This document shows positions 27,162-40,375 of a stretch of 40,375 bases of DNA, in pieces. Location: assembly GCA_903939515.1 (NCBI GenBank), contig CAJAHH010000016.1:1-40375 (forward strand). Direction: 5' to 3'. The DNA is from an uncultured Verrucomicrobiota bacterium (GTDB lineage Bacteria; Verrucomicrobiota; Verrucomicrobiia; Limisphaerales; UBA9464). A program made the position numbers and the translations under genes. The first letter of the stretch is position 1, and every line of letters begins with the position of its first letter. The notes beneath the pieces were generated by a model that worked only from the letters and a program-made list of their open reading frames with translations, was not told where the DNA came from and did not search any database.

Positions 27162-27277
27162 AAGTCAGCGACGGGAAAATCTCCACGGAGGTCAAGATAT
27201 CGGGAATGACCCAAGTCTTCCGTTCGAACCCTCAGCCGACCGAAAAGCGTCCAGAATCGTAGCCCGACCCCGTTCCC
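27162..27277 (+). repeat. About 115-bp direct repeat flanking the peptide-transporter cassette, copy 1
   Basis: It contains GGGAATGACCCAAGTCTTC, then CCCTCAGCCGACCGAAAA and GTCCAGAA. Judged by eye, about 80% identical with 33754-33873 in the same orientation. Both copies can be read in one frame as a GMTQVF-x-SNPQPTE-x-x-PE peptide, so the repeat may descend from a coding sequence. Confidence 0.85.
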
Positions 27278-27429: not shown

Positions 27430-27604
27430 TTTGTCATCGCGAGGCCCGCTTGGCCGGACTTCTCGCAATGAACTGAATCAAAAATAGCAGGCGCCGGTGC
27501 GAACACCGATGCCTCGCCGCGCTAATTCCTTATCCAACTCATTCAATATCCGGATTAGTGGTCGCGAAGCACACATGCGTTTGATACATTTAGAAGGATC
27601 CCCC

Positions 27605-28561
27605 ATGTCAAATCAAAACCCTGCAACGTCGCTGCCGGATTCTAAAGGCTGGCTTGGCGGACTTCTCCGGAACCGCCTCGTTCTCGTCGGCGGTTGCCTG
27701 CTGGTCCTGTTGGGCCTGGCGGCGCTGACCGCACCGGTCTGGGTCAAGGCCGGGCTGCTGCTCGATCCGGCCCAACAATTCCCCACCGGCCTAGATGAGG
27801 ATGGCATGCCGGTGAAGGCCAGCGGGCAGTTCCTTGTCGGCACGGACAACCTCGGGCGCGATGTGTTCAGCCGCGCGATTCACGGGACGCGGGTGTCGCT
27901 CACCGTTGGGGTGGCGGGAATGCTCACGGCGATGCTGATTGGGGTGGTGGTCGGAGTGGTCGCCGGATTTCGCGGCGGGACAATGGACCTGCTGTTGATG
28001 CGCTTCACGGATATGAACATGACGTTGCCGGGCATCCTGCTGGCGATCGCGTTCGCCGGAGTCATGGACGGGCGCACCCTGCACCTGCATCCGAGCTTCC
28101 TGCCGTGGCACTGGCTCGATGTGAAATTGGAGCGCGGGATGGTCAGCCTGTTCCTCATCATCGGTTTCGTCTGCTGGCCCGGCATGGTGCGGGTGATTCG
28201 AGCCCAGGTGCTGAGCGTCAAGGAACGGGAGTTCATCATGGCGTCCCGGGCGCTGGGCGCTTCGGATGCGCGGCTGATCTTTGGCCACGTCCTGCCCAAT
28301 ATTCTGCCTACCATCATCGTGATGGCGGCCATGCTGACGGCGAACACCATCATGCTCGAAGCCGGCCTCAGCTATCTAGGCATCGGCGTGCCGGCACCCG
28401 CGCCGACCTGGGGCGCGATGATCACCGACGGCCAGCCCTACTTCATCACCGCGCCGCATCTTGTCATCGTGCCCGGCCTCGCAATCGTAATGACGGTGCT
28501 CGCGTTCAACCTCATCGGGCAGGGTTTGCAGGAAGTGCTCGATCCGAAACGGAAGGTATGA
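27605..28561 (+). CDS. Peptide ABC transporter permease, DppC/OppC type
   Basis: About 318 residues from ATG 27605, preceded by a good SD (AGAAGGA at 27591-27597); the frame is open further up but without protein-like sequence. A short cytosolic N-terminus is followed by a first membrane helix (LVLVGGCLLVLLGLAALTAPV) and the OppC signature FLVGTDNLGRDVFSRAIHGTRVSL. Four more membrane segments follow, together with the EAA loop that contacts the ATPase (REFIMASRALGASDARLIFGHVLPN). Together with the B-type permease at 30622 it would form the channel. It is the first gene of the operon, which is unusual: in most Opp/Dpp operons the binding protein and B permease come first. Confidence 0.92.
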   Translation: MSNQNPATSLPDSKGWLGGLLRNRLVLVGGCLLVLLGLAALTAPVWVKAGLLLDPAQQFPTGLDEDGMPVKASGQFLVGTDNLGRDVFSRAIHGTRVSLTVGVAGMLTAMLIGVVVGVVAGFRGGTMDLLLMRFTDMNMTLPGILLAIAFAGVMDGRTLHLHPSFLPWHWLDVKLERGMVSLFLIIGFVCWPGMVRVIRAQVLSVKEREFIMASRALGASDARLIFGHVLPNILPTIIVMAAMLTANTIMLEAGLSYLGIGVPAPAPTWGAMITDGQPYFITAPHLVIVPGLAIVMTVLAFNLIGQGLQEVLDPKRKV

Positions 28562-28564
28562 GGG

Positions 28565-28709
28565 GTTTTCTACAGAAGGAAACGAAGACAACGAAGGTGA
28601 AAGCATCCGGCGCTACGTCACCCTTAAACGAATCCCATTGGGGTTGGCTTAGTCCGCTCCTCACACCTTTCTCTCCGTCTTCGTTCCCTTCGTTTGCTTC
28701 TGTGAAAAC
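28565..28709 (+). repeat. Inverted-repeat element A in the transporter operon
   Basis: About 145 bp. The left arm (TTTTCTACAGAAGGAAACGAAG, 28566-28587) is a near-complement of the right arm (CTTCGTTTGCTTCTGTGAAAA near 28688-28708). The element fills the whole gap between the permease stop and the binding-protein start, and its right arm contains the GTG start codon. About 88% identical to element B. Confidence 0.85.
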
Positions 28710-30270
28710 CCTCTTCCTTCTTCTTCTGTTCACCACGGCCGCTTTGTGCGCTGCCGAAACGCCGCGACGCCCGAAAATCCTCCGGCTCGCCCGCACCGAC
28801 GACCCGATGACTCTCGATCCGTCGACCATGCAAACTATGGTCGACGGGTTGTTTTGGCCGCTCCTGTATCTGCCGCTGCTCGACATCACAAACCGGACCG
28901 ATCTGGTGCCCTGCGCAGCGCGGGCCTGGAACGTCTCGCCGGACAAGCGCGTTTTCACCCTGTGGCTGCGGCCCGGAGTGAGGTTTTCCAACGGGCGCGA
29001 AGTCACCGCCGCCGACTATGTTTATGGGCTGGAGCGGTGTCTCAACCCTGCCACTGGCTCGAGTTGGTCGGGATTTTTGAAGGGCATCCGCGGCGCGCAA
29101 GCGTTCATTAACGGCAAAACCAATCACGTAAACGGCGTACGCGCCCCGTCTGCCGACACGCTGGTCATCGAATTGGAGCGCAGTGATCCCGCGTTTCTCT
29201 ACTTTCTGGCATCCTCTCCGGGAACTGCGGTACCACGGGAAGAGGTGGAGCGACTGGGACCCGCTTTCTCTGTCCGGCCGGTGGGCAACGGTCCGTATGT
29301 CGTTCAGAAGTGGGTGCGGGGCGCGCGGCTGCAGTTGGCCCGCAACCCTCATTACCAAGGCCCTGAGCCGCAGCATCTAGACGGGGTGGATGTCCTGATC
29401 GGCGGTGACTCGACCACGCTTCTGATGATGTTCGAGCGGGGAGAATTGGACGTGTCTCAACCTCTGTCCCCTCCGTTCCCAAGTTTTCTCCGCCTTAAGA
29501 ATGATCCGCGCTGGCGTGGCCTGATTGAACGGGAAACATTGTTTGGGACCCTCGGCATCATCCTCAACACCACAATTCCACCGCTTAACAACCGGCTGGT
29601 GCGCCAGGCGATCAACCATGCGATCAACCGGGATCTCCGGATGAATGTGGCCCAGGGACTGTCCACGCACGCGGAGGGCATGCTGCCGCCCATCATGTCG
29701 GGCTATAACCCCCGTCTGCGCGGCTACGACTACAATCCCGAAAAAGCCCGCGAGATCCTCCGACAATCGGGCCTACCGCTGCCGCTGCACACCGTCTTAT
29801 GGCACGATCCAATATATTCCGATAAGGCCCAGGGGCTCCAATGGGACTTGGATCAAGTCGGGATCAAAGTGGAACTCAAGGCCGTCTTGTTCAGCCAGCT
29901 CACCCCAGCGCAGAAGACGGGCGACCGCGTGCCAATGGCGTTGGACGGTTATTTTTCGATTTCCCCAGATCCGGTGGACATGCTGGGGGGCAATTTCGAT
30001 GGCCGGACCATCAAGAACGATTCGGCGTTTAACTTTGCGTTCTACAACAACCCCGAGGTCAACCGACTCTTGGACCTGGCGGCGCCGGAGGTGGAACTGT
30101 CCAAACGTTACGCGCTCTATCATCAGGTCGAGGAACTCATCGTGCGAGACGCTCCCTGGGTGTTTCTCGGACATCCGAATCTCGTGGTCCTGCGCCAGCC
30201 TTGGATCAAGGGGCCGCTCGTCGAGCCGCTCTGGTGGTATCGCTACGACCGGGTGTCGATTGAAGAATAG
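28702..30270 (+). CDS. Peptide ABC transporter substrate-binding protein (SBP family 5)
   Basis: 522 residues from GTG 28702, which gives a signal peptide (VKTLFLLLLFTTAALCAAE); an in-frame ATG at 28558 would place element A inside the protein. The family 5 (OppA/DppA/MppA) pattern is clear: LRLARTDDPMTLDPS, VPCAARAWNVSPDKRVFTLWLRPGVRFSNG, VTAADYVYGLERCLNP, GNGPYVVQKWVRGARLQLARNPHY, LLMMFERGELDV, LVRQAINHAINRD and MLPP...GYNPRLRGYDYNPEKAREIL. A Cys follows Leu near the cleavage site, but the lipobox is poor, so it is probably free in the periplasm. It captures oligopeptides for the permease pair. The 5' end plus element A is duplicated at 30330-30520. Confidence 0.93.
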   Translation: MKTLFLLLLFTTAALCAAETPRRPKILRLARTDDPMTLDPSTMQTMVDGLFWPLLYLPLLDITNRTDLVPCAARAWNVSPDKRVFTLWLRPGVRFSNGREVTAADYVYGLERCLNPATGSSWSGFLKGIRGAQAFINGKTNHVNGVRAPSADTLVIELERSDPAFLYFLASSPGTAVPREEVERLGPAFSVRPVGNGPYVVQKWVRGARLQLARNPHYQGPEPQHLDGVDVLIGGDSTTLLMMFERGELDVSQPLSPPFPSFLRLKNDPRWRGLIERETLFGTLGIILNTTIPPLNNRLVRQAINHAINRDLRMNVAQGLSTHAEGMLPPIMSGYNPRLRGYDYNPEKAREILRQSGLPLPLHTVLWHDPIYSDKAQGLQWDLDQVGIKVELKAVLFSQLTPAQKTGDRVPMALDGYFSISPDPVDMLGGNFDGRTIKNDSAFNFAFYNNPEVNRLLDLAAPEVELSKRYALYHQVEELIVRDAPWVFLGHPNLVVLRQPWIKGPLVEPLWWYRYDRVSIEE

Positions 30271-30329
30271 ATGAAACAGAAGGCAACAGCAGGAAGCACA
30301 ACTAAGAGCAGCTGCGCTCCAGCGGGGAA

Positions 30330-30472
30330 TTTTTCACAGAAGGAAACGAAGAAAACGACGGTGAAAGCATCTGGCGCCACGTCACCCTTAAACGAATCCC
30401 GTTGGGATTGGCTTAGTCCGCCCTCACTCCTTTCGGTCCGTCTTCGTTCCCTTCGTTTGCTTCTGTGAAAAC
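30330..30472 (+). repeat. Inverted-repeat element B in the transporter operon
   Basis: About 143 bp. The left arm (TTTTTCACAGAAGGAAACGA, 30330-30349) is a near-complement of the right arm ending at 30472 (CTTCGTTTGCTTCTGTGAAA). The interior also matches element A (GTGAAAGCAT, CACGTCACCCTTAAACGAAT, TTGGCTTAGTCCG). Confidence 0.85.
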
Positions 30473-30566
30473 TCTCTTCCTGCTTCTTCTGTTTACCGCG
30501 ACCGCTTTATGCGCATCCGAGACCGTCATGGGCGGGCCATCGATTCCCCGAAGAAATAGTGCCTAA
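30465..30566 (+). pseudogene. Orphan duplicate of the binding-protein signal peptide
   Basis: GTG 30465 opens 33 codons ending in TAA 30564-30566. The first 19 encode VKTLFLLLLFTATALCASE, nearly the same as the signal peptide of the upstream binding protein (residues 1-19). The match then stops. It is the stub of a second binding-protein gene, or of a partial tandem duplication that took element B along. It overlaps the leader region of the next permease gene. Confidence 0.7.
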
Positions 30567-30621
30567 CGGCAACAGCAATCTGTTAACCTCTGCGGCTCCC
30601 CCACGAAATCAAACAAACGCC

Positions 30622-31545
30622 ATGCTCTTACGACTCGGCAACCGGTTGTTCTGGTCGGCCGTGACCCTGCTCGGCACGGCCGTGCTCACGTTCTTGCTCG
30701 TCAACGCGGTTCCCGGAGACGTGGCGCGCGTCATCGCCGGGCCAAAGGCATCGCCCGAAGTGATCAAGGCGATCCACACGAAGTTTCATCTCGATGAACC
30801 GATTTGGAAACGTCTGGGCTATCATTTGAATAACCTGGCCCACGGAGATCTGGGGCAGTCCTACGTCACAGAACAACCGGTGGCCGAAGCCATCTTGACC
30901 CGGCTGCCGACGACTGCTGCCTTATCCACCCTAGCCATCATCCTCTGGATGTTCCTCGCCGTGCCGCTGGGCGTGCTGACCGCCAAATACAGCGGGTCGT
31001 GGTTCGACCGCTTCGTGCTGGTGATGGCCACACTCTCCCTCTCGCTGCCCGCCTTCTGGCTCGCGCGCATGCTTCAGTATTGGCTTTCCTACAAGATGGG
31101 CTGGTTTCCGGTGGCGGGGTTTCGCGGCTTCTCTCATTTGCTGCTGCCCGCGGGGACGCTCGCGCTGTTGTTCGTGGGCTACTACGCCCGACTCATCCAC
31201 AGCAACATGACCGAAGTGCTCAACAGCCCCTACGTCCGCGCCGCCCGGGCCAAGGGCGCTCCGGAAACGGTGGTGTTGTTCCGGCACGGCCTGCGCAATG
31301 CGATGATCCCGGTCGTCACCATTCTCGCCATGGACGTGGCTGGGCTGCTCGGCGGAGTGATGTTCACCGAGAACGTCTTCGCGCTGCCCGGCATCGGCAC
31401 GCTGGCGGTGCAAAGTGTGTTCAACCTCGACGTGCCGGTCATCATGGGAACGGTGATGTTCAGCGCCGTCCTCGTCGTGGCTGCCAACCTGATGGTGGAC
31501 GTGCTGTATCAGTGGATCGATCCGCGCATCAAATCGGCGGCGTGA
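30622..31545 (+). CDS. Peptide ABC transporter permease, DppB/OppB type
   Basis: 307 residues from ATG 30622 (MLLRLGNRLFWSAVTLLGTA); the open frame begins 21 codons earlier with unlikely sequence. The OppB signature is present: the first helix is followed by LLVNAVPGDVARVIAG, then FHLDEPIWKRLGYHLNNLAHGDLG, then PTTAALSTLAIILW. Six membrane segments are expected. The EAA loop is YVRAARAKGAPETVVLFRHGLRN, and the conserved GGVMFTENVFALPGIGTLAVQSV ends the core. Pairs with the C-type permease at 27605. Confidence 0.93.
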   Translation: MLLRLGNRLFWSAVTLLGTAVLTFLLVNAVPGDVARVIAGPKASPEVIKAIHTKFHLDEPIWKRLGYHLNNLAHGDLGQSYVTEQPVAEAILTRLPTTAALSTLAIILWMFLAVPLGVLTAKYSGSWFDRFVLVMATLSLSLPAFWLARMLQYWLSYKMGWFPVAGFRGFSHLLLPAGTLALLFVGYYARLIHSNMTEVLNSPYVRAARAKGAPETVVLFRHGLRNAMIPVVTILAMDVAGLLGGVMFTENVFALPGIGTLAVQSVFNLDVPVIMGTVMFSAVLVVAANLMVDVLYQWIDPRIKSAA

Positions 31546-31549
31546 TGGG

Positions 31550-31701
31550 GATCTTTACAGAAGGCAACGAAGGGAACGAAGAAGACGGGGAAATCAACAC
31601 CTGACAGGTCACGGCCAGATCAACCACCACTTGCAACCCGCCAAACCAAAAGCACGAAGCGCCAATTTATCAGGGCTCTTTCGGTTCCTTCTGTAAAAAT
31701 C
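31550..31701 (+). repeat. Inverted-repeat element C in the transporter operon
   Basis: About 152 bp. The left arm GATCTTTACAGAAGGCAACG (31550-31569) pairs with the right arm CGGTTCCTTCTGTAAAAATC (31682-31701), which ends exactly before the ATG of the next gene. The arms belong to the same family as those of A and B (ACAGAAGG-x-AACGAAG), but the interior is different. Confidence 0.8.
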
Positions 31702-32694
31702 ATGCCTCTCCTCGAAATCAAAAACCTCCAGGTCGAATTCGGCTCTGGCGCCCACGCCGCCCGTGCGGTGGACGGCGTCTCCCTCTCGCTGGAGGCCGGC
31801 AAGACGTTGTGTCTCGTCGGCGAGAGTGGCTCTGGGAAGAGCGTGACCGCGCTTTCTATTGCCAAGCTCGTGCCCTCTCCACCCGCGCGCTACGTCGGCG
31901 GTGAGATTCTCATTGAAGGTCGTGATGTTTTGAAAATGTCCTCGCGCGAGTTGCGCGATATTCGGGGCGGACTAGTGAGCTACGTCTTCCAGGAACCGGG
32001 CGCGTCCTTGAACCCAGTCTTTCGCATCGGGGCGCAAATTAAGGAATCCCTCAAATACCATCGGCCTGCGGCAGCCAACGATACCGAGGTCATCCGATTG
32101 CTGAAGCTCGTCGGCATTCCTGCGCCGGAATCGCGGTTGAGAAATTATCCGCACGAACTGTCCGGCGGCATGCAGCAACGTGTGATGATCGCGATGGCGC
32201 TCGCGTCGCAACCGAAGCTGCTCGTGGCCGACGAACCCACCACCGCCCTCGATGTCACCATCCAGGCGCAAATCATTGAGCTGTTGGGCGACCTGCGCAA
32301 ACAACTGGGCATGGCCGTACTGCTCATCACCCACAACCTCGGCATCGTGGGTGACCTCGCCGATGACGTGGCGGTGATGTATGCGGGACAAATCGTCGAG
32401 CACGGGCCGGTGCGCGAGGTTCTCCAGAGGCCGCTGCATCCCTACACCCAGGCATTGATCCAGTCCGTGCCCGACCTGGAGGCCGAAGTCGAGCGTCTGA
32501 CGGCAATTCCCGGCACTGTTCCATTGCTGGGATCCTTTCCGGGCGGGTGCCGCTTTCATCCCCGTTGTCCGAAGGCACAGGCAAGTTGCTCCACCCAGGC
32601 TCCAGAACTCGCCTCCGTCAAAGCGGGCCGTCGGGTGCGCTGCCCGCTTTGGGACTCGCTTCTCGAACCTCAAACCGTTTCTCACCGGGCATGA
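31702..32694 (+). CDS. Peptide ABC transporter ATPase, DppD/OppD type
   Basis: 330 residues. Walker A GESGSGKS (about 40-47), Q-loop [10 protein letters not shown], signature [15 protein letters not shown], Walker [14 protein letters not shown] and switch His in [10 protein letters not shown]. The C-terminal oligopeptide-transporter extension holds the Fe-S/Cys-type motif [16 protein letters not shown]. It powers import together with the F-type ATPase. Its stop overlaps the next start as ATGA (32691-32694). Confidence 0.95.
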
Positions 32695-33656
32695 ACCTTC
32701 TCGAAATCCAAGACCTCAAGGTCCACTTCCCTGTCGCACAACGCTTGTTTGGCCGGACGAAGGAATTCGTGCGCGCCGTGGATGGCGTGAGCTTCACCAT
32801 CGCGCCTGGCGAAACGGTTGGGCTGGTGGGTGAGAGCGGTTGTGGCAAGACCACGCTCGGGCGCGCCGCCATCAAGCTCGTCGAGCCGACCTCCGGCCGG
32901 ATTATGTTCGAGGGTGAAGACATTGCCGCCCTGAGCGGCAAGGAACTGCGCGCCCGCCGCCGCCGCTTCCAGATGATTTTTCAGGACCCCTTCGGCTCGC
33001 TGGACCCGCGACGGACCGTCTCCGAAATCATCGGCGAAGCGTTGGATATTCACGGCCTCGCTCCCGACGCCTCAGCGCGGCGCCAGCGCATCGACGCCTT
33101 GCTGAAGGACGTGGGGCTCGATCCGTCGCATGCTTCGCGCTTGCCTCACGAATTCAGCGGTGGTCAGCGCCAGCGTATCGGGATCGCGCGCGCCGTGGCC
33201 GTGGAGCCGAAGCTCATCGTCTGCGATGAGCCCGTCAGCGCGCTCGATGTGAGCGTGCAGGCGCAAATCATCAACCTGCTCCAGGATCTCCAGCGCGAGC
33301 ACGGCATCGCGTATTTGTTCGTCGCGCACGATCTCGCGGTGGTGAAACACATTAGCCGCCGCATCCTCGTGATGTATCTGGGGCGCATCGTCGAATCCGG
33401 AGAGGCCAAGGAAGTCTGTCGCGCGCCGAAACATCCCTACACCCAGGCGTTGCTCTCGGCCGTTCCCGTCGTCGATCCCGATTCCAAGCGTCAGCGCATT
33501 CTTCTGGCCGGCGATGTCCCCTCACCGATTCATCCGCCCGGCGGTTGCCCATTTCATCCGCGTTGTCCGGTCGCCGAAGCGCGCTGCAAAACCGAAGTCC
33601 CACCGCTGCGTGAACTCGGATCCGGACACTGGGCTGCATGCCATTTGGCGACGTGA
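32691..33656 (+). CDS. Peptide ABC transporter ATPase, DppF/OppF type
   Basis: 321 residues from ATG 32691, which overlaps the D-type ATPase stop. A longer frame opens at 32547 but would lie inside the previous gene. Walker [11 protein letters not shown]-loop [14 protein letters not shown], signature [15 protein letters not shown], Walker [14 protein letters not shown], switch His in [12 protein letters not shown], and the C-terminal [19 protein letters not shown] motif of the oligopeptide class. It ends the operon; no clear terminator follows before the repeat at 33754. Confidence 0.95.
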
Positions 33657-33753: not shown

Positions 33754-33873
33754 AAGCCAGCGACGAAAACCTCTCCGCGAAGAGCAAGATCTTGGGAATG
33801 ACCCAAGTCTTCGGTTCCAACCCTCAGCCGACCGAAAACGGTCCAGAAACGTTGGCTGACCCCGGTTACCCCA
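33754..33873 (+). repeat. About 115-bp direct repeat flanking the peptide-transporter cassette, copy 2
   Basis: Same orientation as 27162-27277 and alignable from GCGACG...AAAA through GGGAATGACCCAAGTCTTC to TCCAGAA and GACCCCG. Also readable as the GMTQVFGSNPQPTENGPE peptide within a 65-codon frame (33741-33938) that I do not call a gene. Confidence 0.85.
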
Positions 33874-33918: not shown

Positions 33919-36900
33919 CTATCTCAATCTCGCACTGACTCGGACAAATCGAGCGGTTGCAGAGCCATTCACCGCGGTTCCCAACCGGGCCACGACCCGA
34001 GTCGACCCATCCGACTGCGCAGCCCGCGACACCTCGCTGACCTCGCCACCGGCATCGATCCAAGTGTGCAGATCGGTTGAAAGCTCGAGTCGATAAGCCA
34101 AGTCCGTCGCCGCAGTCCGAATGCGGTACGCAAGAGTCATCCCTTGGCTTCCGACGCCCGAAATAACCTCCAATGGCCGGGGTCCGCTGCTCTCGGGCTG
34201 AAGCACAAATGCATAAACCGTGAAATTGTCTATGCCGTCGCCGTCCGCATCTGCACCCGGTAAGATACGTTCTGGAGTAAAGCCGCGCCTGAACGTGGCG
34301 GCCGCCCATGCCTCGTAGCCGGCAACCGGGAGCCCATTGGTAAGACCCGGCGTTGGCCCTTCGATCCAACGCCACGGACCGGTTCCCTCAGGAAATCGAC
34401 CCCAACTAATGCCGAGACGGCTCGGCCCCAGGTCGACCCAATCCACAAATGCCCGCAGCGTCCCGTCGCGATCGGCTTGAACCAAAAAGACATCGTCCCC
34501 CGACCGATCCAGAGCGAAGGGCACGCGCGCTGCCGCGTTGGCTGGATTGTTAAACTGCTTCTCTCCGAGCACGAACCGCGCCCTAGGGCCCAGCACTGTC
34601 GCCGGAAAAAGATACTTCCGGTAATCGGCCGAAGAATCGCTCAAGTACCAGCCAGTGATATCAACGACGTCCCCGCTGGTGTTGATCAACTCGATGAAAT
34701 CTTCTCCCCCGATCGCAGGAGCCGCCAAAACTTCGTTCAAGACCACTCGACGGTCCTGACCCCCTCCGGCTGAGCCGGGAGAACCATGAAACTCCGCGCT
34801 GGCCCGCCACCTCCTAGGATCGCCCAACCACGCACTCCTCGCACCCTCTGAAGACGGTGCACTCACAGGGTCGAGCAGTTCGAGGCTGCTGCCGCCTCCA
34901 TCCGCCCGGTTGGGCCATCCTCCGTCGGTACCGTAGACACAAATAAAGGCGGTGGCCCCGTCGGCCGCGAGCACCTCAATCCGTTCGCCCGCATTCGACA
35001 ACGTCCCGATCCACGGGCCTAGCACCCGGACACCGGCCCGGTAATAGGGCGAGGTCGTCGCCCCATATCGGGCATCAAAGGCGTTCAAATCTTTTGCCAG
35101 CACCAACCGCTCTCCTGCACCTAGGAGCGTGGCTTTCGGAAAGCGATAAAATACAGCGTTCGTCACCACCACGTCGGAAAGATCGACCGTCGCCCCAGAT
35201 GTGTTCAGAAACTCCAGGAACTCCGTGTCTGCGACCTCACGCGGATGGTATTGAATTTCGGACAGTATGAGGTTCCTTGAGGAGGCTTGGGCCATCCCTT
35301 CCGGAACAAAGTAGGACTCCACAATCGCCGACCAGTCCGTCCCCGTGTAGACGCGCGCTCTAAGCAACATCGGGCGATCAATCGCCACTGGCTGAGTTAG
35401 AACCCCGGCCGCGATGCCGCCTCCAGAAACGCGCGGATCGGATCCATCGATGGTGAAATAAACCTTCCCGACGGGGCTTGTGAACCCGACCCGTTGACCT
35501 GCGGGAACCGGACCCGGGCTCGCTGAGAGAATCGGTGGATCCGCAGGCCACCATCCACTCCGCTTGCGGATCTGTTGAATGAGGCGGGCCGTGCGAGCCG
35601 GGAAAAACGTTTCACGAAGATAGCGCCACTCGTTCGCCCATTCCTGATCACGATCCCAAGGCAACGCAGCAACGCTGCTCGAAGGCTGCCAGCGAGCCGT
35701 TTCAGCCACGATTGGCAACCGAAGCTCCTCCATCCAGCTATTGTAGGCCGCGCTGGCCCGGGCAGGAGTCAGTACCCCGTCACCAAAACAATGCCGGTAG
35801 AGTCGATCGCGAAAAAGCACTCGAAAGTCCGACTGCCGCATCAGCGCGGTAAAGATGCCATCAGGAACGTCTTGATCGGTGCAATCGGCAGCCACGTCTT
35901 GCAACGTAATGTCCGAATCCTGCTGAAAGAATTTCCAGCCACCGCGATCGGCCAAGCGGGGTCCGGCTGCCGCCCAGTTATGCTGAGCCGACCAATCCCA
36001 GTCATTCCCGGCATAAAAACTGAGCACCATGGAGTCACAAAGATTTGTGATATCGATCCACCGCTTCGCCTGAGGATAATTATTGAGGCTGGATTTGAGA
36101 CTGCTCCAGGCCACACGCCAGTGATCGCCGCGACCGTGGTCGCTACCGGTCGTCGCACCGCCGGAAAAATGAAAATCCTCACGCGGCCCGGGATAGTAAC
36201 TGGCCATGAAATCCTCATCCGGATGTTCATGGATGTGATAAATACCATGGTAGGATCCGTTGAGGAAAAGGTGTACCTGGCGCCCATGCTTTCCGGGCTG
36301 CCCCATGGCCAGTTGCATCTCATCAATCCAAGGATTTCTAGCCAACTGCGCATCTCCACTTCGGGTCACCGAAGGGCTCCCGTAGGGCACCGGTGGATTT
36401 TCCTTCGTACCCAGCCAGTAGAACGTGTCGTGAGAATGACTTCTCAAACGTAGTTCGTTGAACTCCGTCGCCGCCCCGGCCGAAAATCTCGATCCCCGGG
36501 CAAATACGGGATAGCGCAACTTGGCCGGTCCGTACTTGGTCCGAAATCGTGCCGACATACTCAGTTTTGGAGAACCCAGACTCGTCGTTCCGGTCGCCGC
36601 CACGCCGCAATCAATCTGGAAGCCTGGCTCGCGATTCTCCGGATCCAGCAACTCGACCGACGCCAGCCGCTCAGTCGTGGAGGGCCCAGTGCCCATAACT
36701 ACCGAAACCGCGGGCAAGGCCAAAAAGGCATCGTCGAGCAATGGCCCATAAGTCGCATGCTTCGTAATACTCGGTAGCAATCGTGTTTGACCCACAATCC
36801 CATCGGTCGCCGGACCGGTGACCCCGTTAACAAAGAGGTACGTTCGCGTTCCCACCGGTGAATACGCCGCTGCAGAGTGTACCGCAATTGCACGAACGAC

Positions 36901-38802
36901 TCGGGTTCCCCGCACGATCCCGGAGGTATTCGGGGTCACGGTAATTGGCCCCTCGTAGAGACTGCCCGTAGAAGCCGTCGGGGCTGTACCGTCGAGCGTG
37001 TACCGGATGACCGACTCTGGCAGGGCTGCCGTCAGCTCCACTGTAAACGTCTCGGTGAAAAACCCATGATCGCGACTGAAGCCAACCGGGTTTTCACCGC
37101 CACCGGTCCTCGCACCATTGGCTGCCCCCGGCGTCGGAACCTTGAGATAGCCGAGGCCACCGTCGACTCCCTGACCATAGGAGACACCGGGGAACTGCCG
37201 TGGAAATTTCAGTTCACTTTCTACAACCGAAAACCCCGGCCTAAACAACCCCACCCACTCCCCCTCTGAGGAAATGGAGAAGGTTGTGTGCAGTAGTTTT
37301 GAACCGGCCGGTGAGATTCCAAGGCCATCGGCCAGAATTACGAGAAACTCCCCCGGTGCCAGTGTCGTCGGAGGAAACTTCCATTGGCCCGGGTCCTTCT
37401 GGTCATTCGACAACGCCCAACCCGAGAGATCTACGTATTGCGGAAGTTCGTTATAAATCTCAATCCATTCCCGCAGAACTGAACCCTCATCGGGCACCCC
37501 GCCCATCTCGTTCGCCTGGATCTCCGTGATCCGGACCCTCGGCGGCAGAACCGATAGCTCAAAGGCCTGCTCAACCCAGCGCCCCGTGTTGTCCGTCGCT
37601 CGCAGTCGAAACCTCGCTGACGGTTGTCCTGCAGGCAGGGGTTTCATTAACCGCACATCACCAGCGACCACCTCGAAGAAGGTATTGTCCACGTCTCCGA
37701 CGCCCTTGGCTAATGCCACCGAGTGGGTATCGAACAGATCGACATCCTCAACCACAACCCGCGCCACCCGCTCACCGATCCGCGCCGACGCGGACACGGA
37801 CGTCGCATCTAATCGAAGCCCGCTCGGTGCATGCGGTTCGGTGAGCTTGATCCTGATGGCTTTCTCCAAGAACCGCTTTGCATCGGCCGAATCGGTGGCG
37901 CGCACCCGGATGGAAAACAGTGATCCGGGCGGAAGTTTTGAAAAATCGAAAAGCCCAGGGAGAACCGCTCCACCGGAGATCACAAACTTGGTGTTGTCCG
38001 CATCTCCCTCGCCGGCCACCCACGTGAGGTCGTGCGTTGCGTTGGGTTTGCCGTCTACAACACGCAACTGGCCGATCCGCTCGGGCTGCGGGAGTGAGAA
38101 CTCCGCGGGTTCTAGCAAGATGTCCTGTGGCGCTGGAGGCACGGTGATCCGTTCGAGGGTCAGCGCTTGCCAGATCGGGTTCCGGTCACCCCCGTCGACT
38201 GTTCCAAATAAATTCCCCATCTCAACGACGAGGACCCCTGAAGTGGCGGTGATTTCGCAGGTGTAGAGCGTCGCTCGATCGGGGAAATACGCCTGACCTG
38301 GGGCGACTCCTAGGGATGTCATCTCGTCAACGGCCTCGCTTCCACCGACCCGAATATCCCAGCGACGGTCCTCTGGGCTATTCCCTGAAATAAGAATTTG
38401 CAGCTTGTACTGCTCACCCGCCACGACCGTGAGGCTCGCTCGCAACCGCTCACCCGATCCCGCCACGGCCCACCGAATGTCGCTGAAAATCTCCTCAAGT
38501 TGGTCGTCATCCACACTGCCACCAAACTCCGGCTTCGTTTGCCAGGAGGTGACTTGCTGAGGCCCCACCAGCGTAGCACCCACGATCTTTTGTGTGTCGG
38601 GGAGAAAAGTGATTCCTCGAACTTTCCTGGGACCGTCGTCCGCACTGAAATTAATCGCGTAAAGAATCTCCCCCTCCAGATCCAGATCCTTAGCGCCCCG
38701 AATTTGCGTCACCGCCCCCATCTTAACTGTCGTCGCCGCGTGCAGCGTCAGCAACCCGCTCGCGAACCACAAAAAACCAGTTAGCCCTAAGAATTGGAAC
38801 AT
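33919..38802 (-). CDS. Giant secreted lamin-tail / CotH multidomain protein
   Basis: 1,627 residues from ATG 38802, chosen because it gives a signal peptide (MFQFLGLTGFLWFASGLLTLHAA); the frame is open 36 codons more. Approximate order: an N-terminal beta domain with a shark-fin/malectin-like look (30-215); two cadherin-like repeats (225-420, with DVDNTFFEV-type motifs); lamin-tail domain 1 (420-530, VRITEIQANE...WIEIYN); a chitobiase C-terminal-like module (580-660, IRYTLDGTAPT); the CotH core (about 695-1060, HGRQVHLFLNGSYHGIYHIHEHPDEDF and GGWKFFQQDSD); a second chitobiase-like module (VYFTIDGSDPR); lamin-tail domains 2 and 3 (EFLEFLNTSG, DFIELINTSG); and an ADADGDGIDNF Ca-binding-like tail. 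Likely a cell-surface or extracellular scaffold. Its substrate is unknown. Confidence 0.88.
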   Translation of the reverse strand: MFQFLGLTGFLWFASGLLTLHAATTVKMGAVTQIRGAKDLDLEGEILYAINFSADDGPRKVRGITFLPDTQKIVGATLVGPQQVTSWQTKPEFGGSVDDDQLEEIFSDIRWAVAGSGERLRASLTVVAGEQYKLQILISGNSPEDRRWDIRVGGSEAVDEMTSLGVAPGQAYFPDRATLYTCEITATSGVLVVEMGNLFGTVDGGDRNPIWQALTLERITVPPAPQDILLEPAEFSLPQPERIGQLRVVDGKPNATHDLTWVAGEGDADNTKFVISGGAVLPGLFDFSKLPPGSLFSIRVRATDSADAKRFLEKAIRIKLTEPHAPSGLRLDATSVSASARIGERVARVVVEDVDLFDTHSVALAKGVGDVDNTFFEVVAGDVRLMKPLPAGQPSARFRLRATDNTGRWVEQAFELSVLPPRVRITEIQANEMGGVPDEGSVLREWIEIYNELPQYVDLSGWALSNDQKDPGQWKFPPTTLAPGEFLVILADGLGISPAGSKLLHTTFSISSEGEWVGLFRPGFSVVESELKFPRQFPGVSYGQGVDGGLGYLKVPTPGAANGARTGGGENPVGFSRDHGFFTETFTVELTAALPESVIRYTLDGTAPTASTGSLYEGPITVTPNTSGIVRGTRVVRAIAVHSAAAYSPVGTRTYLFVNGVTGPATDGIVGQTRLLPSITKHATYGPLLDDAFLALPAVSVVMGTGPSTTERLASVELLDPENREPGFQIDCGVAATGTTSLGSPKLSMSARFRTKYGPAKLRYPVFARGSRFSAGAATEFNELRLRSHSHDTFYWLGTKENPPVPYGSPSVTRSGDAQLARNPWIDEMQLAMGQPGKHGRQVHLFLNGSYHGIYHIHEHPDEDFMASYYPGPREDFHFSGGATTGSDHGRGDHWRVAWSSLKSSLNNYPQAKRWIDITNLCDSMVLSFYAGNDWDWSAQHNWAAAGPRLADRGGWKFFQQDSDITLQDVAADCTDQDVPDGIFTALMRQSDFRVLFRDRLYRHCFGDGVLTPARASAAYNSWMEELRLPIVAETARWQPSSSVAALPWDRDQEWANEWRYLRETFFPARTARLIQQIRKRSGWWPADPPILSASPGPVPAGQRVGFTSPVGKVYFTIDGSDPRVSGGGIAAGVLTQPVAIDRPMLLRARVYTGTDWSAIVESYFVPEGMAQASSRNLILSEIQYHPREVADTEFLEFLNTSGATVDLSDVVVTNAVFYRFPKATLLGAGERLVLAKDLNAFDARYGATTSPYYRAGVRVLGPWIGTLSNAGERIEVLAADGATAFICVYGTDGGWPNRADGGGSSLELLDPVSAPSSEGARSAWLGDPRRWRASAEFHGSPGSAGGGQDRRVVLNEVLAAPAIGGEDFIELINTSGDVVDITGWYLSDSSADYRKYLFPATVLGPRARFVLGEKQFNNPANAAARVPFALDRSGDDVFLVQADRDGTLRAFVDWVDLGPSRLGISWGRFPEGTGPWRWIEGPTPGLTNGLPVAGYEAWAAATFRRGFTPERILPGADADGDGIDNFTVYAFVLQPESSGPRPLEVISGVGSQGMTLAYRIRTAATDLAYRLELSTDLHTWIDAGGEVSEVSRAAQSDGSTRVVARLGTAVNGSATARFVRVSARLR

Positions 38803-38940
38803 GTTTGGTGGAAATTCGCTTTGAACGGGGAATCTGGGATGATCAGTGCTTTTTGAGGAAAACTGCGAGCAAATTGCTTGTAACGCTCCGCCCGCAATTC
38901 TAACTCCCAAGAACCCCGCAACGCCAAAGCGAGTCGAGTT

Positions 38941-38956
38941 TGGCGCGCAAACTGCT
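38941..38956 (+). promoter_or_regulatory. Putative sigma-54 promoter of the flagellin gene
   Basis: TGGCGCGCAAACTGCT matches the -24/-12 consensus TGGCACG-N4-TTGCW at 10 of 12 defined positions, with GG and GC 12 bp apart as required. It lies 83 bp before the flagellin ATG. Flagellin genes in many bacteria are sigma-54 or sigma-28 dependent; no good sigma-28 site was found. Confidence 0.45.
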
Positions 38957-38980
38957 GCAATACCTAGGGGATTTAAGCGA

Positions 38981-39007
38981 TTTTTAGCAATAACGGCATG
39001 CTAAAAA
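38981..39007 (+). promoter_or_regulatory. 9-bp inverted repeat in the flagellin leader
   Basis: TTTTTAGCA (38981-38989) and TGCTAAAAA (38999-39007), perfect, with a 9-nt spacer. It sits between the sigma-54-like site and the ATG, so it could be an operator or an RNA stem in the 5' leader. Confidence 0.4.
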
Positions 39008-39039
39008 CTGTATATTAAATACTATAGCGGAAATATTCT

Positions 39040-40161
39040 ATGGTACTGAACACCAACATTCAAGCTCTAAAAACTTCTAGTTTCTTATCAGTTAATACAG
39101 CAAATCTCGCTAAATCACTCTCAAGATTATCATCAGGGTCAAAGATTGTTACACCTTCAGATGATGCCGCAGGTTTAGCTGTTAGCACCCGTTTGGCTAG
39201 CCAAATAGCTCGAAACGAAGTCGCTTACAGCAATGTTACTAATGCTGTTTCTTTTACACAGACCCAAGAAGGACTGTTAGCAACGATAGACAAAGCACTC
39301 AGGCGAATGGCGGACTTGAGCATATTTTCTCAAGACTCTACGAAGAGCCTATCAGATCTTGGATTGTATAGTAAAGAATTTGGCGAGCTCCAGGAATTTA
39401 TTGCAAAATCCATCGAGCAAAAGTTTAATGGAATTAATTTATTCTCAAGCGAATCTCTCAGTCTCGCTGTCAATGAAGATGGTTCAATATATAAACTAGG
39501 CGCAGTTAATTTAACTGATAGTAAATATCAGAACGTGCTTAATAAGCCTGAGAATTTTACCAATCAATCAGGCACAGCTATTTTTGCAGATAGCACGATG
39601 ATCAGGTTGACTCTTAGTCAAGTTGACTACAATAAAGCAATAAAGAGCGACTCGCTAACACTTAGCAATTTAGGTTTGACTAATGGTGTTGGAAGTAACG
39701 CCGCCGCTGATAGACTGCAATTAATGAACGGTACATACACAATTAAAAATGCAGACCCTGGTAACAGGTACATCTGGCTAGATGCAAGTGGTTCACCTAG
39801 CTCAATATACGGAACCAGCGTAAGTCTTACTTCAGATACAAAAGCTGAATTTAAAACTGGTTTTGATATAACCACTCCTGAAAGAGCGCAATCAGCCTTG
39901 ACTAGAGTTAAATTGGCGATTGACTCAATTGCTCAAACACGGGCTTCCCTAGGTGCTGTTCAGAGCCGTTTGACGATGACTAACGAACAGCTTAGGACAA
40001 CGAATGAGAATCTGTCCGCAGCAACATCTAGAATAACAGATACCGATGTCGCTGATGAGTCTACATCCTACGCTAAGTTGCAAATATTAATTCAATCGGG
40101 CACCGCGATGTTAGCACAATCTAATAAAATGCCTCAGTATGCATTGCAGTTGCTTCAGTAA
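39040..40161 (+). CDS. Flagellin
   Basis: A 373-residue filament protein. The N-terminal D0/D1 helices are classical: VLNTNIQALKTSSFLSVNTA, LSRLSSGSKIVTPSDDAAGLA, then a helix to FNGINLF near residue 130. A variable central domain (about 140-275) is followed by the C-terminal D1/D0 helix (ALTRVKLAIDSIAQTRASLGAVQSRL...TDTDVADE...MLAQSNKMPQYALQLLQ). It is exported by the flagellar type III system, with no signal peptide. The gene is strikingly AT-rich compared with its GC-rich neighbours (many TTA, AAT, ATT and AGT codons). No other flagellar gene is in the window. A small ORF starts on its stop codon. Confidence 0.95.
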   Translation: MVLNTNIQALKTSSFLSVNTANLAKSLSRLSSGSKIVTPSDDAAGLAVSTRLASQIARNEVAYSNVTNAVSFTQTQEGLLATIDKALRRMADLSIFSQDSTKSLSDLGLYSKEFGELQEFIAKSIEQKFNGINLFSSESLSLAVNEDGSIYKLGAVNLTDSKYQNVLNKPENFTNQSGTAIFADSTMIRLTLSQVDYNKAIKSDSLTLSNLGLTNGVGSNAAADRLQLMNGTYTIKNADPGNRYIWLDASGSPSSIYGTSVSLTSDTKAEFKTGFDITTPERAQSALTRVKLAIDSIAQTRASLGAVQSRLTMTNEQLRTTNENLSAATSRITDTDVADESTSYAKLQILIQSGTAMLAQSNKMPQYALQLLQ

Positions 40162-40304
40162 TGGGCGTTTTTTTTAAAGGCCTCTTTGGCCGCCGGCAGC
40201 GCCGCTACCGGGTGTACACTACCGATAGCAACGACATCGCCATCATTCGCCAGGCGGGTGAACGTCAGCCCTTCCTCTCGGGCCCTCCCCGATCAACGGC
40301 CTAG
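40161..40304 (+). CDS. Possible 47-aa basic protein overlapping the flagellin stop
   Basis: The flagellin stop TAA shares its last A with an ATG (TAATG, 40159-40163), and the new frame runs to TAG 40302-40304. The peptide starts MGVFFKGLFGRRQRRYRV and continues YTTDSNDIAIIRQAGERQPF; it is strongly basic at the start. Stop-start overlap is a common sign of translational coupling. Base composition returns to GC-rich exactly here, unlike the flagellin. I recognise no family; flagellin-linked small regulators exist, but this is not one I know. Confidence 0.35.
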   Translation: MGVFFKGLFGRRQRRYRVYTTDSNDIAIIRQAGERQPFLSGPPRSTA

Positions 40305-40360: not shown

Positions 40361-40375
40361 ATGGCCCGTCCAAAG
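40361..40375 (+). other. Possible start of a further gene at the right edge
   Basis: ATG at 40361 begins MARPK and runs off the window. The preceding AT-rich TGTAGTGTCTCAATTAAG (40306-40323) resembles transposon ends seen before some IS630/IS5-like transposases. Five codons are too few to call a product. Confidence 0.2.

Follow-up and report, generated by a model that had tools for sequence, protein, structure and literature searches.

The window, by which we mean the whole stretch of 40,375 nucleotides analysed here, is the entire contig C16 of a lake bacterium's genome (G000; 4.7 Mb in 160 contigs, 95.9% complete), and it carries close to its end a flagellin gene much richer in AT than the DNA on either side. 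This gene is most probably a functional, horizontally acquired accessory flagellin, which is a kind of gene already known from E. coli, where such loci are described as clear imports in the available part of PMC7018530. The source was probably an AT-rich bacterium, and the acquisition would have taken place before three species of the genus diverged. In a phylum that has received little study, the gene is a clear example of a flagellin whose origin can be separated from that of its neighbourhood by composition. It also stays under selection though the genome already has six other flagellins.

The identity of the gene as a flagellin rests on two Pfam domains, Flagellin_N (E 1e-23) and Flagellin_C (E 5e-24), both far above the curated cut-offs. 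The centre between them is variable, and diverges between G000 and one of its congeners, G017. Against the named flagellin subfamilies of NCBIfam, the protein scores below cut-off (best score 163.6 bits against 443, among the matches listed for 25 of 27 families), which bears on the naming of the subfamily and not on the status of the gene as a flagellin. A structure prediction from three sequences was too poor for use (mean pLDDT 38.5). The GC content of the gene is 0.404 and its GC3 is 0.34, compared with a GC content of 0.595 for the whole window. In bins of 40 bp, GC falls from 0.53 (bin 38940) to 0.25 (bin 38980) at the 5' edge and rises from 0.38 (bin 40140) to 0.72 (bin 40180) just beyond the stop codon of the flagellin. 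GC, GC3 and the bins thus confirm what a preliminary description had read from the letters, namely that gene and leader are much AT-richer than their surroundings and that composition switches sharply at the stop. The features discussed are collected in Table 1.

Table 1. Features of the flagellin locus in the window, and the other flagellins of the genome.
Feature	Position	Strand	Basis or remark
tRNA-Ser(GCU), edge of variable segment	26825..26917	+	relatives compared
Oligopeptide-type ABC transporter genes, between tRNA-Ser and CotH-like gene	27497..33656	+	not here in G005
Lamin-tail-domain/CotH-like protein, divergent neighbour	33919..38802	-	same three genomes as flagellin
Sigma-54-type -24/-12 element TTGGCGCGCAAACTGC	38940..38955	+	10/12 match; genus motif upstream of fliW
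AT-rich leader, predicted 5' untranslated region	38970..39039	+	40-bp bins, conservation
Perfect 9-bp inverted repeat, 9-base loop	38981..38989 / 38999..39007	.	sequence, orthologues
AT-rich flagellin gene, 373 aa (Flagellin_N, variable centre, Flagellin_C)	39040..40161	+	Pfam, orthologues
47-codon frame, judged spurious	40161..40304	+	broken in both orthologues
DNA matching chromate-transporter gene end and adjoining spacer of relatives	40248..40304	-	sequence match
End of repeated IS-like element; possible transposase ATG at 40362; contig ends	40300..40375	+	repeats
Six other flagellins: two on C136 (behind fliW-csrA), two on C159, one on C50, one on C99			

The Flagellin_N profile matches nine proteins of the genome, of which seven are flagellins. 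The two weaker matches (on C113 and C15) have a lower Flagellin_N score and a Flagellin_C score under the Pfam cut-off, and look FlgL-like. The gene is therefore solitary, as it had been called, at its locus but not genome-wide. Nor are the flagellins of this genome equally AT-rich: the six others have a GC content of 0.536-0.606 and a GC3 of 0.644-0.822. The C50 flagellin is partial and lies behind fliW-csrA, and the C99 flagellin stands at a contig start (fliW and csrA assigned by Pfam). Since contig C50 ends within a flagellin and contig C99 opens with the end of one, the two probably represent one tandem flagellin array divided by the assembly.

Close orthologues of the window flagellin were looked for in 39 genomes, that is, its own genome, those of 18 congeners and 20 more from the family or order. 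They were found only in G005 (contig C148, 95%) and G017 (C477, 89%), and the next-best match was the genome's own C50 flagellin (52%). The AT-rich flagellin is thus present in 3 of 19 genomes of the genus (its own and two of the 18 congeners); in the remaining 16 congeners it was not found, and as some of these are incomplete (67-97%), its absence from any one of them is uncertain. Both orthologues are AT-rich as well (GC3 0.372 and 0.323, giving a range of 0.32-0.37 for the three copies), and sit at the same locus between the same neighbours, which are of normal GC. The gene has, therefore, the marks of an accessory flagellin: it is extra to the resident flagellins, patchy among species and unlike its host in composition. 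A phylum-wide sample yielded a match at E 1e-40 in one of 387 genomes, the genome of the window itself; this says little, as the 21 rows listed include only one other genome of the same order. For that reason, 320 genomes of the order were searched, with up to 6 candidates scored in each, and neither a closer homologue nor an AT-rich donor was found among them. A scan of public contigs returned the G005 and G017 records again. As for vehicles, phage carriage was considered, and one scan of viral contigs gave no relative of the flagellin; a plasmid source was considered too, and all 155 plasmid records retrieved lie below 60% identity (29.7-39.0% among the matches listed, 15 of 155).

A phylogeny of the flagellins places the three AT-rich copies in one clade, on a very long branch (1.6), within a 12-row clade that also holds the genus class to which the C50 and C99 flagellins belong (support 100/99). 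This tree took 37 of 45 flagellin rows, eight partial or near-duplicate rows having been left out by name. A second tree, built from the conserved ends of 33 rows, keeps the grouping (11 rows, 100/99) with a branch of 0.81; in three of its rows (L012, L022 and L036) the gene is open at the 3' end, so that what was taken as their last 95 residues is not the genuine C-terminus, and L103 is missing its first codons. The sequence extraction did not contain L020, L028, L030 and L033, which were added by hand, and L031, L034, L035, L038, L043, L044, L099, L107 and L108 were not used. The ends of the window flagellin differ from those of five members of the class by a dN of 0.33-0.36, with dS saturated. 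A class member compared with three flagellins from other families of the order gives a dN of 0.25-0.31. Among themselves, the class members of G000, G005, G014 and G015 are separated by a dN of 0.002-0.09 (0.03-0.09 in comparisons with G014 or G015, below 0.01 where only G000 and G005 are concerned). Set against the values across families, the distance of the window flagellin from the class makes it look like an entrant into the lineage that is related to the class at family level, and not like a young duplicate.

The same tree could be read differently. The gene could be a duplicate of the C50/C99-type class that arose within the genus, lost constraint and drifted in place towards AT with a burst of change, an alternative that we take seriously and consider unlikely. 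What counts against an import counts in its favour: the class closest to the gene is that of its own genus (100/99), and no donor was found in the 320 genomes of the order, in the viral contigs or among the plasmids. The gene also has a probable promoter of the same type as the class, and its constraint between G000 and G005 is about three times weaker than that of the resident class. However, the CotH-like neighbour has a GC3 of 0.64 in all three genomes, so that no local mutational bias is visible, and the synonymous sites of the flagellin are saturated against the class. Moreover, at the rates seen between G000 and G005 a dN of 0.35 would by calculation require a dS near 4, whereas the dS of the class among G000/G005, G014 and G015 is only 0.65-1.2.

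The time of arrival can be bracketed from synonymous distances. Between G000 and G005, dS is 0.164 for the flagellin and 0.168 for the CotH-like neighbour, and the near-equality argues that the flagellin was resident before these two genomes separated; for the ends, dS is 0.192 in the window flagellin and 0.193 in a resident class pair. By these distances, the AT-rich flagellin appears to have been in place before G000, G005 and G017 diverged. The gene had previously been proposed as a recent acquisition; acquisition is favoured by the present analysis, but how recent it can be is limited by this split.

The window flagellin is under purifying selection, less strict than that on the resident class. 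Between G000 and G005 the dN/dS of its ends is 0.133, compared with 0.039 for the class pair, and across the three pairs of AT-rich copies it is 0.12-0.19. Nonsynonymous changes number 15 in the window flagellin and 4.5 in the class (Fisher p 0.02-0.04 with 4 or 5), in a comparison where gaps inflate the differences of L103 and the tandem copies of the class are not certain to be orthologous. Across the three copies, base changes do not run clearly in the direction of host composition, with the root unset and the changes in G005 readable both ways.

The pair G000 and G017 behaves differently along the gene. The ends are close (dS 0.05-0.07) and, compared with the neighbour gene, poor in synonymous differences (p = 0.004), and the centre is divergent (dS 0.68, dN 0.30). 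Because of this divergent centre, whole-gene dN/dS reaches 0.29-0.46 in the pairs with G017. Close ends around a divergent centre suggest that segments of the flagellin have been exchanged between species. The G017 gene itself (L093, 5000-6169; G017:C477) has its centre replaced relative to both G000 and G005 and its ends close to G000. In enterobacterial flagellins, replacement of the central domain by recombination is known as H-antigen switching (PMC7018530, in the part available), and the G017 pattern resembles it. Unlike the enterobacterial cases, the present one concerns environmental species, and only three sequences are at hand. It is conceivable, although we would not expect it, that the three copies are drawn from a pool of AT-rich flagellin alleles shared by the genus and an unsampled donor through the tRNA-Ser(GCU) region, with ends that recombine, centres that are swapped and a sigma-54 promoter; in that event, the promoter would let each flagellin that arrives be used at once, free of fliW-csrA control.

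Codon use bears on the explanation offered earlier that selection on a very highly expressed gene gives it peculiar codons. Flagellins are usually abundant proteins, which lends that explanation some initial appeal. Codon use was compared with two tables, one from nine window genes (the CotH-like gene included) and one from four highly expressed genes (EF-Tu, L11, NusG and SecE). On the first, the window flagellin deviates from expectation by z = -22, and the other flagellins lie between -3.1 and +4.3; the anomaly noticed in the composition is real. On the second, the window flagellin has z = -29 and the other flagellins -8.5 to -1.0; as the CotH-like gene reaches -31 there, the value of -29 alone is unspecific. 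On the same table, the mean log codon frequency of the window flagellin is -1.90 (expected -0.96), the lowest of the genes tested, compared with -1.46 for the CotH-like gene and -1.01 to -1.25 for the other flagellins. The codons it favours (e.g., ATA, AGA, TTA and TCA) are rare in the highly expressed set, EF-Tu (GC3 0.78), L11 (0.68) and the six other flagellins use GC-ending codons (GC3 0.64-0.82), and the untranslated leader is AT-rich as well. High expression as the cause is thus rejected by the codon sets and must be considered very improbable.

A sigma-54 site matching the consensus at 10 of 12 positions had been pointed out upstream of the gene. The site is there, and is found in both orthologues with one base different in G005. 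Since the window holds four such 10/12 matches where 4.96 are expected by chance, their number is no evidence for a sigma-54 promoter. A narrower pattern, YTGGC-N7-YTGCW, formed after the sites of the window, C50 and C136 had been seen, occurs once in the window, at this very site. It also lies upstream of fliW in each of the six loci of the C50/C99-type class for which upstream DNA was available (G000 C50, G001, G007, G014, G015 and G018), which are mutually related, and likewise precedes the fliW of C136; Pfam recognises FliW on C136 and in five of these six loci, the frame in G007 being alike by eye. The pattern is absent upstream of the C99 flagellin and of the two C159 flagellins. Its background, with flagellin loci excluded, is two occurrences in 141,940 bp of other DNA from this genome, or 0.001 expected per 150 bp on one strand; one further match falls inside the flagellin gene of L023. 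The genome has rpoN, and encodes a FliA-type sigma factor too. Because the motif recurs upstream of the fliW loci of the genus, the site gains credibility and is probably a sigma-54 promoter. A scan for sigma-70 promoters gave a single weak site, on the opposite strand, and no terminator was found.

The leader that follows has a GC content of 0.25 and 0.35 (40-bp bins from 38980 and 39020) and is conserved in both orthologues. The perfect inverted repeat reported there was recovered; it is identical in G017 and differs in G005 by one change from a U-A pair to a U-G wobble. Its RNA fold is slightly better than that of shuffled sequences (z = -1.9), and no function is assigned to it. In G001, a sigma-54-like sequence, TGGCACAACAGTTGCTGC, occurs in AT-rich DNA at a contig end (L087, 1-230; G001:C193), beside the gene that flanks the flagellin downstream in G005 and G017; whatever it may drive lies beyond the contig.

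In the window, tRNA-Ser(GCU) is followed by the ABC transporter genes, the CotH-like gene, the flagellin and the contig end. In G005 and G017 the gene downstream of the flagellin encodes an N-methylation-motif protein, and in G003 and G011 this gene and tRNA-Ser(GCU) lie about 0.13-0.18 kb apart with no insert, as an empty site. About 0.26 kb past the CotH-like gene, G005 carries a copy of the tRNA-Ser 3' end together with part of the flank downstream of it. Beyond this copy lies DNA of 46.9% GC (L092, 14019-15377; G005:C148) encoding an HTH_17 protein and a ribbon-helix-helix-like protein, the latter below the Pfam cut-off; copy and DNA together are probably a mobile element integrated in the tRNA gene and cut by the contig end. 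In the window, there is no integrase-sized ORF between tRNA-Ser and the transporter genes, and on the side of the flagellin nothing longer than 8 bp repeats the tRNA end. A genomic island proper, with an integrase and a duplicated tRNA end bounding the block, is not what is seen here, the 3'-end copy occurring only in G005 and on the CotH side. By these comparisons, the segment appears variable and tRNA-associated, and is a candidate only for an element that carried the flagellin. Two further observations concern this segment. The CotH-like gene of G014 is reduced to a fragment (L084, 3493-4856; G014:C161), 95% identical to G017 and the window, compared with 91% identity to G017 for the 3.4 kb next to it, a hint that the gene was transferred recently and has decayed. 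The transporter genes of the window are flanked by a 111-bp direct repeat of 83% identity (27162-27272 and 33754-33864), and the transporter ATPase gene of G014 is on another contig; the block is possibly a second insertion.

The course of events that we favour, acquisition of an accessory flagellin, can then be outlined as follows. The window gene would encode a functional accessory flagellin related to the C50/C99-type class, which in the genus is linked to fliW-csrA. The donor of the flagellin and its leader would be an AT-rich bacterium outside the sampled genomes, which probably belonged to the same order, and the two would have arrived next to the CotH-like gene, in the variable segment beside tRNA-Ser(GCU), ahead of the three-species divergence. 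Transcription would probably start from a sigma-54 promoter like that of the resident fliW-csrA-flagellin operons, and the protein may leave the cell through the resident flagellar secretion system and serve in the filament as an alternative or minor subunit.

Among known systems, the imported accessory loci of E. coli (flkA, fllA, flmA and flnA; PMC7018530, in the part available) likewise provide an extra flagellin gene outside the main locus. They belong to another phylum; the window gene differs in being nearest to its host genus's own class and in its strong mismatch of base composition. With the C50/C99-type fliW-csrA-flagellin operon the gene shares its class (ends 62% identical to C99) and the sigma-54-type motif. 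The resident genes, in contrast to the window gene, which stands alone and is AT-rich, are GC-rich, linked to fliW/csrA and, judging from the contig ends, probably tandem. The flagellin pair on C136, also behind fliW-csrA, is of another class, with ends 44% identical to those of the window flagellin. In the literature, no paper pairing flagellin with Limisphaerales was found.

There remains a frame of 47 codons that begins on the flagellin stop (TAATG). The overlap and the frame exist as letters, but the comparisons indicate that the frame is an artefact of an insertion-element junction and not a gene. In G005 the flagellin ends TGATAG, leaving no ATG for the small frame, and in G017 a stop codon closes it after 18 codons; a counterpart next to flagellins elsewhere was thus missing in both orthologues. 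That it encodes a translationally coupled regulator of the flagellin, as had been suggested from the overlap and the basic product, is hardly credible, given this loss of start and reading frame, the lack of any Pfam or NCBIfam match, the resemblance of 40248-40304 to DNA of other genes in relatives, and the position of its last bases and stop codon inside the end of a repeated element. A tempting misreading, in which such a junction is taken for a small gene, is thereby corrected.

The match at 40248-40304 is 86% over 57 bp in G001 and 90% over 51 bp (40254-40304) in G014. The corresponding gene in G017 is a Chromate_transp member by Pfam, and no match to it was found in the window's own genome at E 1e-60; the remnant would fit the loss there of an intervening chromate-transporter gene. 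The first 26 residues of the possible transposase match no Pfam family. The repeated element whose end makes up the window from 40300 on occurs at eight places in the genome, at least seven of them at contig ends, and the five copies that were read have a common start, CTAGTGTAGTGTCTC. With its TA-containing junction, the element resembles IS630.
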